Origin: Sulfurimonadaceae bacterium
GTDB lineage: Bacteria; Campylobacterota; Campylobacteria; Campylobacterales; Sulfurimonadaceae
Reading direction: 5' to 3'
Length of the DNA: 53,044 bases
NCBI GenBank assembly: GCA_016744575.1
Contig: JADGEC010000008.1
Span: 1-53,044, forward strand
In this document: one piece after another, positions 13,302 through 38,970 of the stretch
How the letters are laid out: each line of letters opens with the position of its first letter
Numbering within the stretch: the stretch's first letter is position 1
Program-made: the position numbers and the translations under genes
Notes under the pieces: generated by a model
What the model was told of the DNA's origin: nothing
Databases searched by the model: none
What the model saw: the letters and a program-made list of their open reading frames with translations, nothing else

Positions 13302-16300
13302 ACTATTTTTTCTTTTTTTCTTTCTTTGTCGACTTACGCTCTCTGCACTTACCTTTACGCCGGGAGAGCAGCAGTGGATAGATGAACACCCTGTCATCAA
13401 GATGGGAGCCGACTACAGTTGGCCCCCTTATGATTTTGTAGACAGCAGTGGCAGACACGTAGGAATAGCTGCTGATATCTTGACCTTGATCGAAAAAAAA
13501 AGTGGACTGAGCTTTGATGTCAGGCCCGGTATCTGGTCGGAGGTCATGACACAGATGCGAACAGGGGGACTTGATGGACTTACTTGTGCCGTCAAGACAT
13601 CTGATCGTGAACAGACTTTAAAGTTCACGACACCTTATGTCAGTATGGCATTGGCGATAGTGGTCAAAGGTGGACGGCAGGATATTTATACCGTTGATGA
13701 CTTAGACGGTAAAGTCGTTGCGGTAAACAGTGGCTCTTATCTGCATGAGTGGCTAGTGAGTCATTACCCCAATATACGGCTTTATCTTACATCCTCAAAT
13801 GATGCTTCTGTCGAGGCAGTCTCTTTTTCGCATGCTGATGCCTATATCGGTAATATCGCCGTCGCGAACTACATCATCAAGACAAAATACCTCTCTAACC
13901 TAAAGATCGTCAATAAAGTACCGGACATGAAGACCGATGTCTCTGTCGCTATTAGTAAAGAGAATCCGCTGTTGTTCTCGATCATCGAAAAGACACTTGC
14001 AGATATCTCACAAGATGAACGTAACAAGATAACGCAGCGATGGTCACTATTATCTCAGACAGAACTGGAGCATTCTGCTGCTCTTAGCCGTGATGAGAGA
14101 CAATGGATAGTCGAACATGGTACAGTAAGTGTAGGTGGTGAATCCGATTGGGCGCCTTTTGATTTTGTGGATGATCAAGGTGCGTATAGTGGCATTGCCA
14201 ATGATTATTTGATACTGCTCGCACAGAAGACTGGTCTAAAGTTTGATGTGATCGTCGATCAGTGGAGCAACACTTTACAAAAGATGAAAGATAAAAAGAT
14301 CGACCTTCTGCCTGCTATCTACTACACTGAAGAACGTTCACAATATATGGACTATAGTAGACCCTATTTTGAGATGCTTGACTATTTCTTCATACGTGAT
14401 GACCTTGATGTGAAGAGTCTTGCAGATCTCAATGGAAAACGAGTCGCCATGCCAAAAGACTTTGCTCATGTAGAGATCTTGAAAAGAGAGTTCCCACTGA
14501 TCAAGATCATTACGGTCGAGACTTTTTCCGACACCATCGATGCGGTGTTAGAAGATCGGGCAGACATGCTCTTTGATACCTATGTCTCCCTTACCCATGT
14601 ATTACAAAAGGAGAGTATAGACACGATCATCCCTTTTAAGTCATACCGTGGAAATGGTACCGTCAAACTTCATATGAGTACAGATAAAGAGGCACCTTTG
14701 CTTGCCTCTATCATCGATAAAGGACTTGCGGCGATAAGTAGTGCAGAAAAGAAAGAGATCTATGCCAGATGGATAGGGCGTGAACCTATGGTCGAGCAGA
14801 AGAGAGTAGAGCTTACAAGGGGTGAGGAGAAGTGGATAAAGGAGCATCCCACACTTACCTATAGTGAGATAGATTGGACCCCGATGTCGATCCTAAAGGA
14901 TGGAGAGATGGTCGGTATTTTACGAGAATATCTGGAAAAGATCACCGATCGGACCGGCCTGACCTTCAAATATATGCCATCAGCTTCATGGCCGGATGTC
15001 CTGCAAGCCTTTAAAAAAGGCGTTATAGACTTCATTCCGGGTGTTGGAAAAAATGCCCATGAATCAAGCCTTGGTCTGACTTCACGTACTTTTGCCTCTT
15101 TCCCTTTTGTCCTGGTGACGAGACATGAGGAGTCTTTTATCAATGATATCGACGAACTTGAAGAGATGGGCAAGACAATAGCAGTCCCCAAGTACTGGTC
15201 TAGTCATAACTATCTTGTGACACAAAGACCAAATATCAAGATCATAGAGACATCCGATGCTTTTGAAGCTCTAGAGTTGGTGAAAAAGGGAGAAGCCTAT
15301 GCCTTTTTAGGGCATATGGCTGTTGCTATGCATCATGTTGGTACCTACTATCCCAATGAGCTTCACATCGCTGGAAAGATAGATTTTGACTTTGATCATC
15401 AACTCTTACTTCAAAAAGAAGATACTGTGCTGTTGAGTATTCTCAATAAAGCCATTGATAGCATCAGTGAACAAGAGCAGATGGCGATCAGGAACAAATG
15501 GATCAAGGTGAATGTAAAAGAGGCGCAGGACCTTACGTTCTTATGGAAATATCTGCTTTTGGTACTTTTTGTCTTTGCTCTATTTGTCTATTGGAACCGT
15601 AAGCTTAGTCGTGAGGTCGTTTGGCGTAAACGCATAGAAGATGCTCTGTTGGTCGAAAAGGAGAACTTTAAAGTCCTATTTGAGAAGGTGTCCGACGGTA
15701 ATCTTATAATTCAGAAAGGAAGATTTATCGCGGGTAATGAAGCAGCGCTAAGGATGTTTGGTCTAGATGATATCTCAACACTGCTTGAGTCGAGACCGGA
15801 GGATTGGTCTCCCCCTTTCCAAAGTGATGGCTTTGCTTCAGACAAAAAATCTGATGAGATGATCGATAGATGCCTTAAGACAGGTGAACATCGTTTTGAG
15901 TGGATCCATCAAGATATTGATGGAAATGAGTTTTGGGTAGATGTGGGCTTGACCCGGATAAACTACCAAGGTGATAAAGCCATCTATGTCGTATGGCGCG
16001 ATATCAGTGAACAAAAACTGCTTGAGAAGTCATTAAAACAGAGTGAAGCGCAAATACGGATGATCCTTGACCACATCCCTTTGCTTGTCATCGTCACCAG
16101 CTATGATGGGAAGATCCTTATGGCAAACCCGCAGGCATTGAACAAATATGGGTTTACACCACAAGTGTTGAGTGAGGCAAACATCCTCGAATACTACGCT
16201 GATCCTGAAGAGCGTGATATCATACTTCAGACACTTCAGATCTATGGAAAGGTAGAACAAAAGATCGTAAAGTTCAAGATCGATGATGTCATACATGCCA

Positions 16301-36540: not shown

Positions 36541-38016
36541 TCATCGTTTTGCCAGGACACCCATCAGCGCTTTGAGTATGTTGTTATAGTTGACTTTGAT
36601 CAGCTTGTTCTGTGCATAGATGTCTTTGAGCTGTTGGGCATTTGAGGCAGCCTGCCTGTGCCAGTTCTTGACTTCTTTAAGAGCATTGTCATAGCTACGC
36701 AGTCCGCCATCATGTTCTTCATAGCCTTTTCTTAGTAGCTCTATCAACCTTCTGTCTTCATTTTTGAGATTAAGAAGCGCATTACGTTGAGAACTTCCTT
36801 GTTCCTTGAGCTTTTTAAAGGCATCTCTGTTCTCTTGTACCTGCGCTTTTAGTACATTGATGACTCCATCAGCCTGTTTTTTTAGTGGCTCGACTTTAGC
36901 CAATGACTGTTCCGCCTCTTTTTGTCGTTCCATCGTCTCTCTAAGTCTCTCATCTTGAGACTTTGCACGGTTTTTAGCCTCTTTCCACTGGATGAGGACT
37001 GAGAGCATCGAACTGTAGTTCCACTGCTGTCCATTGCCATCGATGATGGCATGCTGAGTGATCTTTTTACCTTCATCATCAATGACGACATTACCATTGT
37101 AGTACTTTACAAAAGTCTCTGCACTCTTGTCCCGTAATTCGATATGTTTTAAAAGGTCTTGTGCAGTATGTTTTAAGATAGGGTCAAAAAAGAGACGAAG
37201 TATAAAACCTGAAAAAGCTGTCAGATCCTCTTTGTCGAGTTCACTAGCCTTCTCAAGGATGACGATCTCTACCATGGAGCGAAAGACCAATATGAACGTC
37301 TTGATGAACTGACGATTACTTATGGTGGAGAAGTCCAGACGATCACTAAGGATGTCTGGTAAGATGGACTCTAGTTGAGGCCATGCGCCATCAGGAAAGT
37401 ACTGCTTATAGATACGTTCCATCTCCTGAGGAGACTTTCCGACAAACCTTCTATCCTCTTTTGCAGCACTCTTTGGTGTAGGGACTGTTTTTCTGATGTA
37501 GATATTGCCTCTGAGAAAAAGGACGATCTCACTCTCATCAAGTTCAAAGAGCAGTTCAATACGCTGACGAAGTCCCTCTTTTATCTTCTCCTCTGATATA
37601 TTACTTTTGGCGTAGTAGTCATACAGCTCCATACGAATATCTTGATCAATGATCCAGAGTGTCCCGGCAGATCGATAAGTAGCGGGGTCTGAAGCGATCT
37701 CCATAAGCTTGACCGTACATCCATGCAGAGATCGGTCATATGCCTCATCTTGTGACATATCAGAAAAGGTCTTCTTGACGACTATATGATCAGCAAATAC
37801 TGAGAGCAGTATCTCTTGTCCAGTCGTGTGAAAATGGTCGATGATCGCCTGTTTGAGTGCGCCCTTTTTTCTATGCAAGTCACTGACGCTGTAAGACTTT
37901 TGTAATATTTTCAGCAGGTTGTCATAGTGTGAACGGTCGAGGTCTAGCGCATACATCTCTTTGGGTAACCAGTCGGCGAGTGCTGCACGTGCCAGATCGT
38001 ATAGTCTGGTATCGAT
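36541..38016 (-). CDS. Unknown coiled-coil protein; likely ATC start codon
   Basis: The first standard start (ATG 37956) would give 471 residues but has no ribosome-binding site. The frame stays open and protein-like for 20 more codons upstream (IDTRLYDLARAALADWLPKE), back to an ATC codon at 38016-38014 preceded by AAGGAG at 6 nt and lying 18 nt after the stop codon of the antiporter gene. I therefore place the start at ATC, giving about 491 residues. The N-terminal two thirds are globular (LRQRIELLFELDESEIVLFL, FILVFRSMVEIVILEK); about residues 355-460 are coiled coil (ERQKEAEQSLAKVEPLKKQADG). No family recognised. The alternative is a GTG/ATG changed by mutation or sequencing error. Confidence 0.7.
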   Translation of the reverse strand: MDTRLYDLARAALADWLPKEMYALDLDRSHYDNLLKILQKSYSVSDLHRKKGALKQAIIDHFHTTGQEILLSVFADHIVVKKTFSDMSQDEAYDRSLHGCTVKLMEIASDPATYRSAGTLWIIDQDIRMELYDYYAKSNISEEKIKEGLRQRIELLFELDESEIVLFLRGNIYIRKTVPTPKSAAKEDRRFVGKSPQEMERIYKQYFPDGAWPQLESILPDILSDRLDFSTISNRQFIKTFILVFRSMVEIVILEKASELDKEDLTAFSGFILRLFFDPILKHTAQDLLKHIELRDKSAETFVKYYNGNVVIDDEGKKITQHAIIDGNGQQWNYSSMLSVLIQWKEAKNRAKSQDERLRETMERQKEAEQSLAKVEPLKKQADGVINVLKAQVQENRDAFKKLKEQGSSQRNALLNLKNEDRRLIELLRKGYEEHDGGLRSYDNALKEVKNWHRQAASNAQQLKDIYAQNKLIKVNYNNILKALMGVLAKR

Positions 38017-38034
38017 CTTGGACTCCTTGTTCTA

Positions 38035-38970
38035 CTAAAGTGTAGTTATGCTGTTTTGAACAAAGAGGGCCAGCAGGACAAATAAAAAGATGGCTCCAGC
38101 TTTGTTGTAGAGTCTATTGGCCAAGATCAGAAGCAGGGCGAGTGATGCCGCGATCATGATCATGATGTCATACGAACTAGCTTGTAGATCGACGCTTAAA
38201 GGAGCGAGCAGTGAAGCCCCGCCGAGTACCATGGAGAAGTTCGCGACATTTGAGCCGATGATATTACCGATACTCAGATCAGCATTGCCTTTCTTGATAG
38301 CTACGAGTGAGACAACGAGTTCTGGTAAAGAGGTGCCCAATGATATCATAAACAGACCGATGATCCACTCACTGATACCAAAGTCTCTTGCGATGCTGCT
38401 ACCGCTTTCGATGACGAAGCTTGCACCACCAATTGTGAGGATGAAACCTATACCCAGGAGTACTGCCGTACGCATCCACTGGAATGACTCCTTTTCCAGA
38501 TCATCATCGAGTTCGCCTTCGAGTGCGTCTTTGTCACTACTGAACAAAAAGAAGAGATAGGCTGCCATTATAGATAAAAAGAGAAGACCATCGATACGGC
38601 TGATGATACCATCTTGTATCATCAACATGAAGACGATGACCGGGAACAAGATCCAGGCACTGTCTTTGGCAAAAAGATCACGATCAGGGTTCATGGACTT
38701 AGCGATCATAAAGACCACACCAAGTACCAGAGTGATATTGAACATCACACTTCCGATGACGTTGGCCACTGCCATATCACTTTTTCCCTGTCCACTTGCC
38801 ATCATCGATGCTGCCATCTCCGGAAGAGAGGTGCCAAAAGCCACTAGGGTGGCTCCGATCACAAAATGTGAGATGTTGTAGTGCAGGGCTATACGCTCAG
38901 ACTCTTTGATGATGAAGTCAGCCCCATAGATCAGGGCTGCCATCGCGGTGATAAAGACAATAATATCCAT
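38035..38970 (-). CDS. Calcium/sodium antiporter (CaCA family, YrbG-like)
   Basis: A 311-residue inner-membrane exchanger with about ten membrane helices in two inverted halves. The alpha-repeat signatures are clear: FVIGATLVAFGTSLPEMAAS in the first half and WIIGLFMISLGTSLPELVVS in the second, each followed by a VANVIGS or IGNIIGSN sequence with the ion-binding acidic residues. An acidic loop (DKDALEGELDDDLEKES) separates the halves. It overlaps the ybeY stop by one base, in an operon order ybeY, antiporter, unknown coiled-coil protein. Confidence 0.93.
   Translation of the reverse strand: MDIIVFITAMAALIYGADFIIKESERIALHYNISHFVIGATLVAFGTSLPEMAASMMASGQGKSDMAVANVIGSVMFNITLVLGVVFMIAKSMNPDRDLFAKDSAWILFPVIVFMLMIQDGIISRIDGLLFLSIMAAYLFFLFSSDKDALEGELDDDLEKESFQWMRTAVLLGIGFILTIGGASFVIESGSSIARDFGISEWIIGLFMISLGTSLPELVVSLVAIKKGNADLSIGNIIGSNVANFSMVLGGASLLAPLSVDLQASSYDIMIMIAASLALLLILANRLYNKAGAIFLFVLLALFVQNSITTL

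Follow-up and report, generated by a model that had tools for sequence, protein, structure and literature searches.

A probable AUC start codon behind a strong Shine-Dalgarno sequence, and its varying counterparts in a gene family of the Sulfurimonadaceae

AUC is very rarely used as a start codon; one has been described for the initiation factor 3 (IF3) gene of Myxococcus xanthus. Other AUN starts have been reported from several bacteria. As described in the accessible text of the sources, infC, which encodes IF3, begins with AUU in Escherichia coli and with AUA in Staphylococcus aureus, and pcnB of E. coli has an AUU start, the poor start codon limiting expression (PMC9410913, PMC13009471). 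In Staphylococcus, ccpN starts with AUA, as it does in Bacillus, and cvfC1 with AUU; the odd codons are described as kept and as accompanied by extended Shine-Dalgarno (SD) sequences (PMC13009471). In poor medium, S. aureus reporters with AUU or AUA starts are stated to give about 10% of the AUG level, a figure that rose to as much as 30% for one gene when the medium was rich (PMC13009471). For lepA, too, an AUU start was proposed, in Borrelia burgdorferi and in Bacillus licheniformis, on the grounds that a full-length protein requires it (PMC1780047). In vitro, raising IF3 to 1.5 µM is reported to cut correct AUU initiation with a CAU anticodon to 31% (PMC10158994), and an AUC start has been engineered in rny of Bacillus subtilis (PMC10303841). 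An ancestral reconstruction counted two switches to AUU in about 69,000 starts (1 of 61,358 AUG and 1 of 5,080 GUG starts, the two types adding up to about 66,000, with none named for 2,468 UUG starts) and, in its accessible text, names no switch to AUC, counts that are subject to annotation bias in that annotation hides such starts (PMC5622118). Within the accessible text of the open-access (PMC) literature, we found no bacterial gene reported to start naturally at AUC, and no report of AUC or AUU starts in relatives of Sulfurimonas.

Here, we describe a gene for a 491-amino-acid protein in a 53,044-nucleotide stretch of DNA from a Sulfurimonadaceae bacterium (contig JADGEC010000008.1; hereafter the window). 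Its genome, a 228-contig assembly, is referred to as G000, and other G numbers denote genomes of relatives.

Start site of the 491-amino-acid gene

The frame of this gene lies on the minus strand and is open from an ATC codon (38016–38014) to a TGA ending at 36541; the coding sequence as delimited by reading frame and orthologue comparison (36541–38016) comprises 491 codons and the stop. The first ATG in frame is codon 21 (ORF 36541–37956, 471 amino acids), and no ATG, GTG or TTG occurs among the 20 codons before it or, more widely, anywhere from the preceding in-frame stop to codon 21. On the minus strand the letters at the start read CTT TAG TAG AAC AAG GAG TCC AAG ATC GAT ACC AGA. The SD sequence AAGGAG (38023–38028, minus strand) is separated from the ATC (38014–38016) by a 6-nt spacer and has a computed duplex energy of –8.0 kcal/mol. 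Two tandem in-frame stops, TAG TAG (38032–38037, minus strand), precede it: the first (38037–38035) ends a calcium/sodium antiporter gene that is read in the same frame (38035–38970, minus strand; Pfam PF01699, E 2.7e-54; TIGR00367 above cut-off), and the second follows at 38034–38032. The initial annotation had proposed a non-standard ATC start with a good ribosome-binding site, on the grounds of the AAGGAG 6 nt upstream and of 20 protein-like codons devoid of ATG, GTG and TTG before the first ATG. Both observations were borne out by reading the strand and the frame, and the proposal itself gains support from the recurrence of ATC and SD sequence in two relatives, G001 and G015. Its figure of 18 nt between the previous stop and the ATC holds when counted from the first TAG; the second TAG, 15 nt before the ATC, had been overlooked.

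The closest comparison is with G001, from the same genus, whose protein shares 85% identity in the aligned part and whose gene keeps both the ATC and the AAGGAG (TAG TGA CAT AAG GAG CAT GAG ATC GAT). Between the two genomes, codons 2–20 show four synonymous and no non-synonymous changes. By contrast, three of the five codons before the ATC have changed, all three non-synonymously, and the two unchanged codons are the SD sequence itself. The pattern of synonymous and non-synonymous change therefore flips exactly at the ATC, which places the border between coding and non-coding sequence at this codon. In G015, which belongs to another genus (39% identical), the start reads CAA GGA GTT CCC ATC, again an ATC behind AAGGAG, and again the gene upstream is an antiporter gene, from the family seen in G000. 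A GTG at codon 6 might serve as the start in G015, though 20 nt separate it from the SD sequence.

We consider it very probable that the gene starts at the AUC at 38016–38014, a codon common to relatives and not a sequence error. The gene has the strong and well-placed SD sequence that marks genes with near-cognate (AUN) starts. At the start defined by its orthologues it lacks AUG, GUG and UUG, and the odd start is kept in relatives (ATC in G001 and G015; ATC or ATT in 8 of 33 orthologues).

Initiation at the first ATG (codon 21, 37956), with the stretch upstream of it as a conserved leader, is an improbable reading. Codon 21 is indeed the earliest of the usual start codons in this frame in both G000 and G001. 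However, codons 2–20 change synonymously, L13 and P18 reach at least 90% conservation across 32 orthologues, ATG occupies codon 21 in only 3 of 33 orthologues, and the strong SD sequence sits 6 nt before the ATC, not before codon 21. Still less likely is that the 491-amino-acid product is a C-terminal extension of the antiporter made by stop-codon readthrough. In G000, G001 and G015 the antiporter gene shares the frame, with 21, 21 and 27 nt, respectively, between its last sense codon and codon 1, so frame by itself would allow readthrough, but two stops stand in tandem in G000 (TAG TAG) and in G001 (TAG TGA), with a single TAG in G015, and the linker, apart from its SD sequence, shows non-synonymous change. 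Furthermore, what precedes the gene in the other large genus is pdxA or a gene for a PilZ protein (assigned by Pfam on one example of each), at variable distances and in variable frames. A leaky single stop followed by an in-frame linker conserved throughout the family was not found.

We give next to no weight to a base-calling or assembly error that turned ATG into ATC. The fragmented state of the assembly (228 contigs) would leave room for one, but ATC is also found in G001 and in the diverged G015, and five more orthologues carry ATT or ATC. A misread G at the third position, against which the initial annotation had advised a check, is very unlikely at the sequence level since two further genomes also have ATC. 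Hardly any more credible is a cognate reading of AUC by an initiator tRNA with anticodon GAU. One site with this pattern, GGGCTGATAACCC, occurs in G111, but a scan of the site (L256) found no tRNA. Initiator-type sites numbered 17 in eight genomes; among the 16 loci scanned, 13 lay in tRNA genes and three in none, and all 13 tRNA genes carry anticodon CAT, so that no dedicated initiator tRNA was found at the 16 scanned loci. G001 and G015 gave zero initiator-type sites and are uninformative on this point.

Start codons and Shine-Dalgarno pairing across the orthologues

Homologues were found in 27 of 100 genomes (E ≤ 0.001), and a search within the same family of bacteria matched 35 of 228 genomes (E ≤ 1e-20). 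We compared the 33 orthologous loci with a readable N terminus, in which codon 1 was set by counting back 21 residues, ungapped, from the invariant Y22. Loci that matched only after residue 40 or had no match at 1e-15 were left out, as were L014 (distant), L031 (the same gene as L002), L053 (which lacks its N terminus) and matches without a locus, such as a second copy in G115. The residues upstream of the first ATG, whose presence in orthologues the initial annotation had made a test of its proposal, are there, and many orthologues start at exactly codon 1. Codon 1 is an apparent start in 23 of the 33: ATC in four (G000, G001, G015 and G106), ATT in four (G028, G111, G117 and G119), TTG in three, GTG in two and ATG in 10. 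The remaining 10 have an ATG 1 to 13 codons upstream of codon 1; L012, which has ATC at the aligned codon 1 and an ATG four codons upstream, was scored as ATG.

None of the eight ATC and ATT orthologues has an ATG, GTG or TTG between the upstream stop and codon 1. A single codon separates the two in G111 (ATT) and G106 (ATC), at loci L034 and L043, and in G119 (L050) all 40 codons before codon 1 are free of usual starts. Downstream, the next usual start is at codon 16 or later, except for the GTG at codon 6 of G015. On a protein tree of the 33 sequences, the distribution of AUU/AUC versus other starts needs six changes, gains and losses together. Eighteen of the 30 inner branches are firmly supported with the start column included and 12 are not, hence the number of AUU/AUC origins is uncertain. 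Some fully supported sister pairs nevertheless differ in their start, for example G119 (ATT) and G108 (ATG). As far as aligned sequences can tell, this distribution indicates that the gene family moved to AUC/AUU starts more than once. In more distant homologues (35 frames, 33 distinct genes, from other genera of the same family and from other families) the AUU/AUC trait was not seen: every one of them has a usual start codon no later than the point where the profile match begins, although a usual codon there by chance would mask the trait.

Two further arrangements were noted in the alignment. L046, L047 and L048 carry GTC at the aligned codon 1, with an ATG 13 codons before it, an arrangement that looks as though this ATG had taken over from a weak start. 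L011 (G013) has ATT GTG in tandem (codons –1 and 1) behind AGAAGG, and either may be the start.

SD strength was computed as the pairing of nucleotides –18 to –4 with the 16S tail. Mean pairing was –6.3 kcal/mol for ATC/ATT (n = 8), –7.5 kcal/mol for TTG/GTG (n = 5) and –2.8 kcal/mol for ATG (n = 20). The difference between ATC/ATT and ATG gave p = 0.0007, or p = 0.005 after removal of six near-copies (7 versus 15), and that between ATC/ATT and all usual starts pooled gave p = 0.011; these values are guides only, since the rows are related by descent. The ranges overlap, with 5 of 20 ATG orthologues pairing better than the weakest ATT case, and the matches in the ATC/ATT cases span 4–7 bases. 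In this family, then, a weak start codon tends to accompany a strong SD sequence, as would be expected if translation truly begins at codon 1 and a poor codon has to be offset by a good SD sequence.

Possible expression control, protein and genomic background

How might such a start be used? The strong SD sequence would position ribosomes at the AUC, and initiation there is probably aided by ribosomes that have just finished translating the upstream gene, 15–18 nt away. In 24 of the 33 orthologues the longest frame upstream has its last sense codon at most 27 nt from codon 1 or overlapping it; these short distances make translational coupling to the upstream gene likely across the family. The ordinary initiator tRNA (anticodon CAU) would pair with A and U and mispair at the third base. 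Proofreading of this mispair by IF3 would keep the protein at a low level, which may rise when the stringency of initiation falls. Low or regulated expression of the gene, which the initial annotation had also supposed, would follow from this scheme, and our guess is that the protein is needed in small, tightly held amounts. A possible mRNA hairpin (37991–38021, minus strand) might add a further layer of control: in the computed fold the start codon lies in the stem and the SD sequence is mostly unpaired (z = –2.04 for a 57-nt stretch and –1.30 for an 81-nt stretch). G001 has a similar computed fold, with the start codon inside the hairpin and the SD sequence mostly open; a family-wide start hairpin was not seen among the 13 orthologues folded.

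We also noted that G000 has four initiator-type tRNA-Met genes by pattern (on C30, C80 and C112; L242, L248, L254 and L257), two of them 288 bases apart, versus two initiator-type sites each in the near-complete relatives G028, G117 and G119. Extra initiator tRNA in G000 could favor poor start codons.

The 491-amino-acid protein has a long predicted coiled coil in its C-terminal third. Sequence searches against Pfam, NCBIfam, PADLOC and the PDB returned just weak, coiled-coil type or below-cut-off matches, the best PADLOC match being Orf5 (E 2.5e-05, residues 303–451) and no Pfam or NCBIfam family passing its cut-off, and an AlphaFold2 model from two sequences was of low confidence (mean pLDDT 49). 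No common partner gene was found in the neighborhood, and the neighbors vary between genera. Autocontrol of the infC type was considered and set aside: no IF3 match occurred among the hits of the family, and the infC match of G000 lies elsewhere, on contig C171. Thirty genomes were searched for infC, and in the 29 that were readable (L054–L082; the 30th was cut) a conserved TTG is the first usual start codon. ATT is codon 2 of infC in many of these 29 genomes and other residues are found there in the rest, which makes TTG the likelier start.

Other genes were screened for similar starts by comparing G028 (0.89 Mb read) with G117 (0.97 Mb read), both of which have ATT in their orthologue of the 491-amino-acid gene. 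From 384 reciprocal pairs 252 non-overlapping ones were retained, of which 10 were skipped and 242 tested. Usual starts lay near the conserved border in 208 pairs; the other 34 were flagged by the script and judged by eye, and only the orthologue of the 491-amino-acid gene was without a usual start. The other flagged pairs comprised cases with a start slightly off the border set by the script, cases with a gap, and three frames that lie opposite a single long gene. Since 68% of internal stretches passed the criterion by chance, the test would miss about two-thirds of such genes, and a stricter criterion did not flag the 491-amino-acid gene either; each genome could hold a few more genes with AUU or AUC starts. 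Forty frames of the window were also set against G001, several of them too diverged or cut to judge, and no other unusual start emerged. In addition to the 491-amino-acid gene, this comparison flagged two frames, at 14920 and 41483, which were rejected: both alignments begin at the end of a G001 contig, and the window frames are open far upstream with usual starts.

Comparison with known AUN-start genes

Genes with AUN starts are known as a kind; the 491-amino-acid gene and the recurrent switching in its family look new. As a tentative proposal, which we hold to be less probable than not, this family in one group of Campylobacterota may use an AUU/AUC start as a dial. It would have moved repeatedly between AUG with a weak SD sequence and AUU, AUC, UUG or GUG with a strong one, often right behind an upstream stop, and its output would track the stringency of initiation (IF3, supply of initiator tRNA) rather than transcription. 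With six inferred changes among its 33 sequences, this single family amounts to a natural experiment on how start codons are chosen, and the apparent trade-off between codon and SD sequence is directly testable. Gene finders limited to ATG, GTG and TTG truncate genes of this kind.

Like infC, the gene has an AUN start whose mismatch with the initiator tRNA is confined to the third base, as set out in the accessible text of the sources (PMC9410913, PMC13009471). Unlike infC, its product is not IF3, and the infC genes of the same genomes have their own conserved TTG (29 of 29), so that IF3 autocontrol is not directly applicable. It differs from pcnB in protein and phylum, and here the codon is AUC and switching recurs within one family. 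The resemblance to ccpN and cvfC1, as far as these are described, lies in a non-canonical start that relatives share and that goes with a strong SD sequence (PMC13009471). In the present family, however, the codon alternates between ATC, ATT, TTG, GTG and ATG, and SD matches span 4–7 bases. The lepA cases, in the accessible account, are isolated and without a family-wide pattern (PMC1780047), in contrast to the recurrent switching seen here; it is this repeated switching within one family that appears to be the unusual part.
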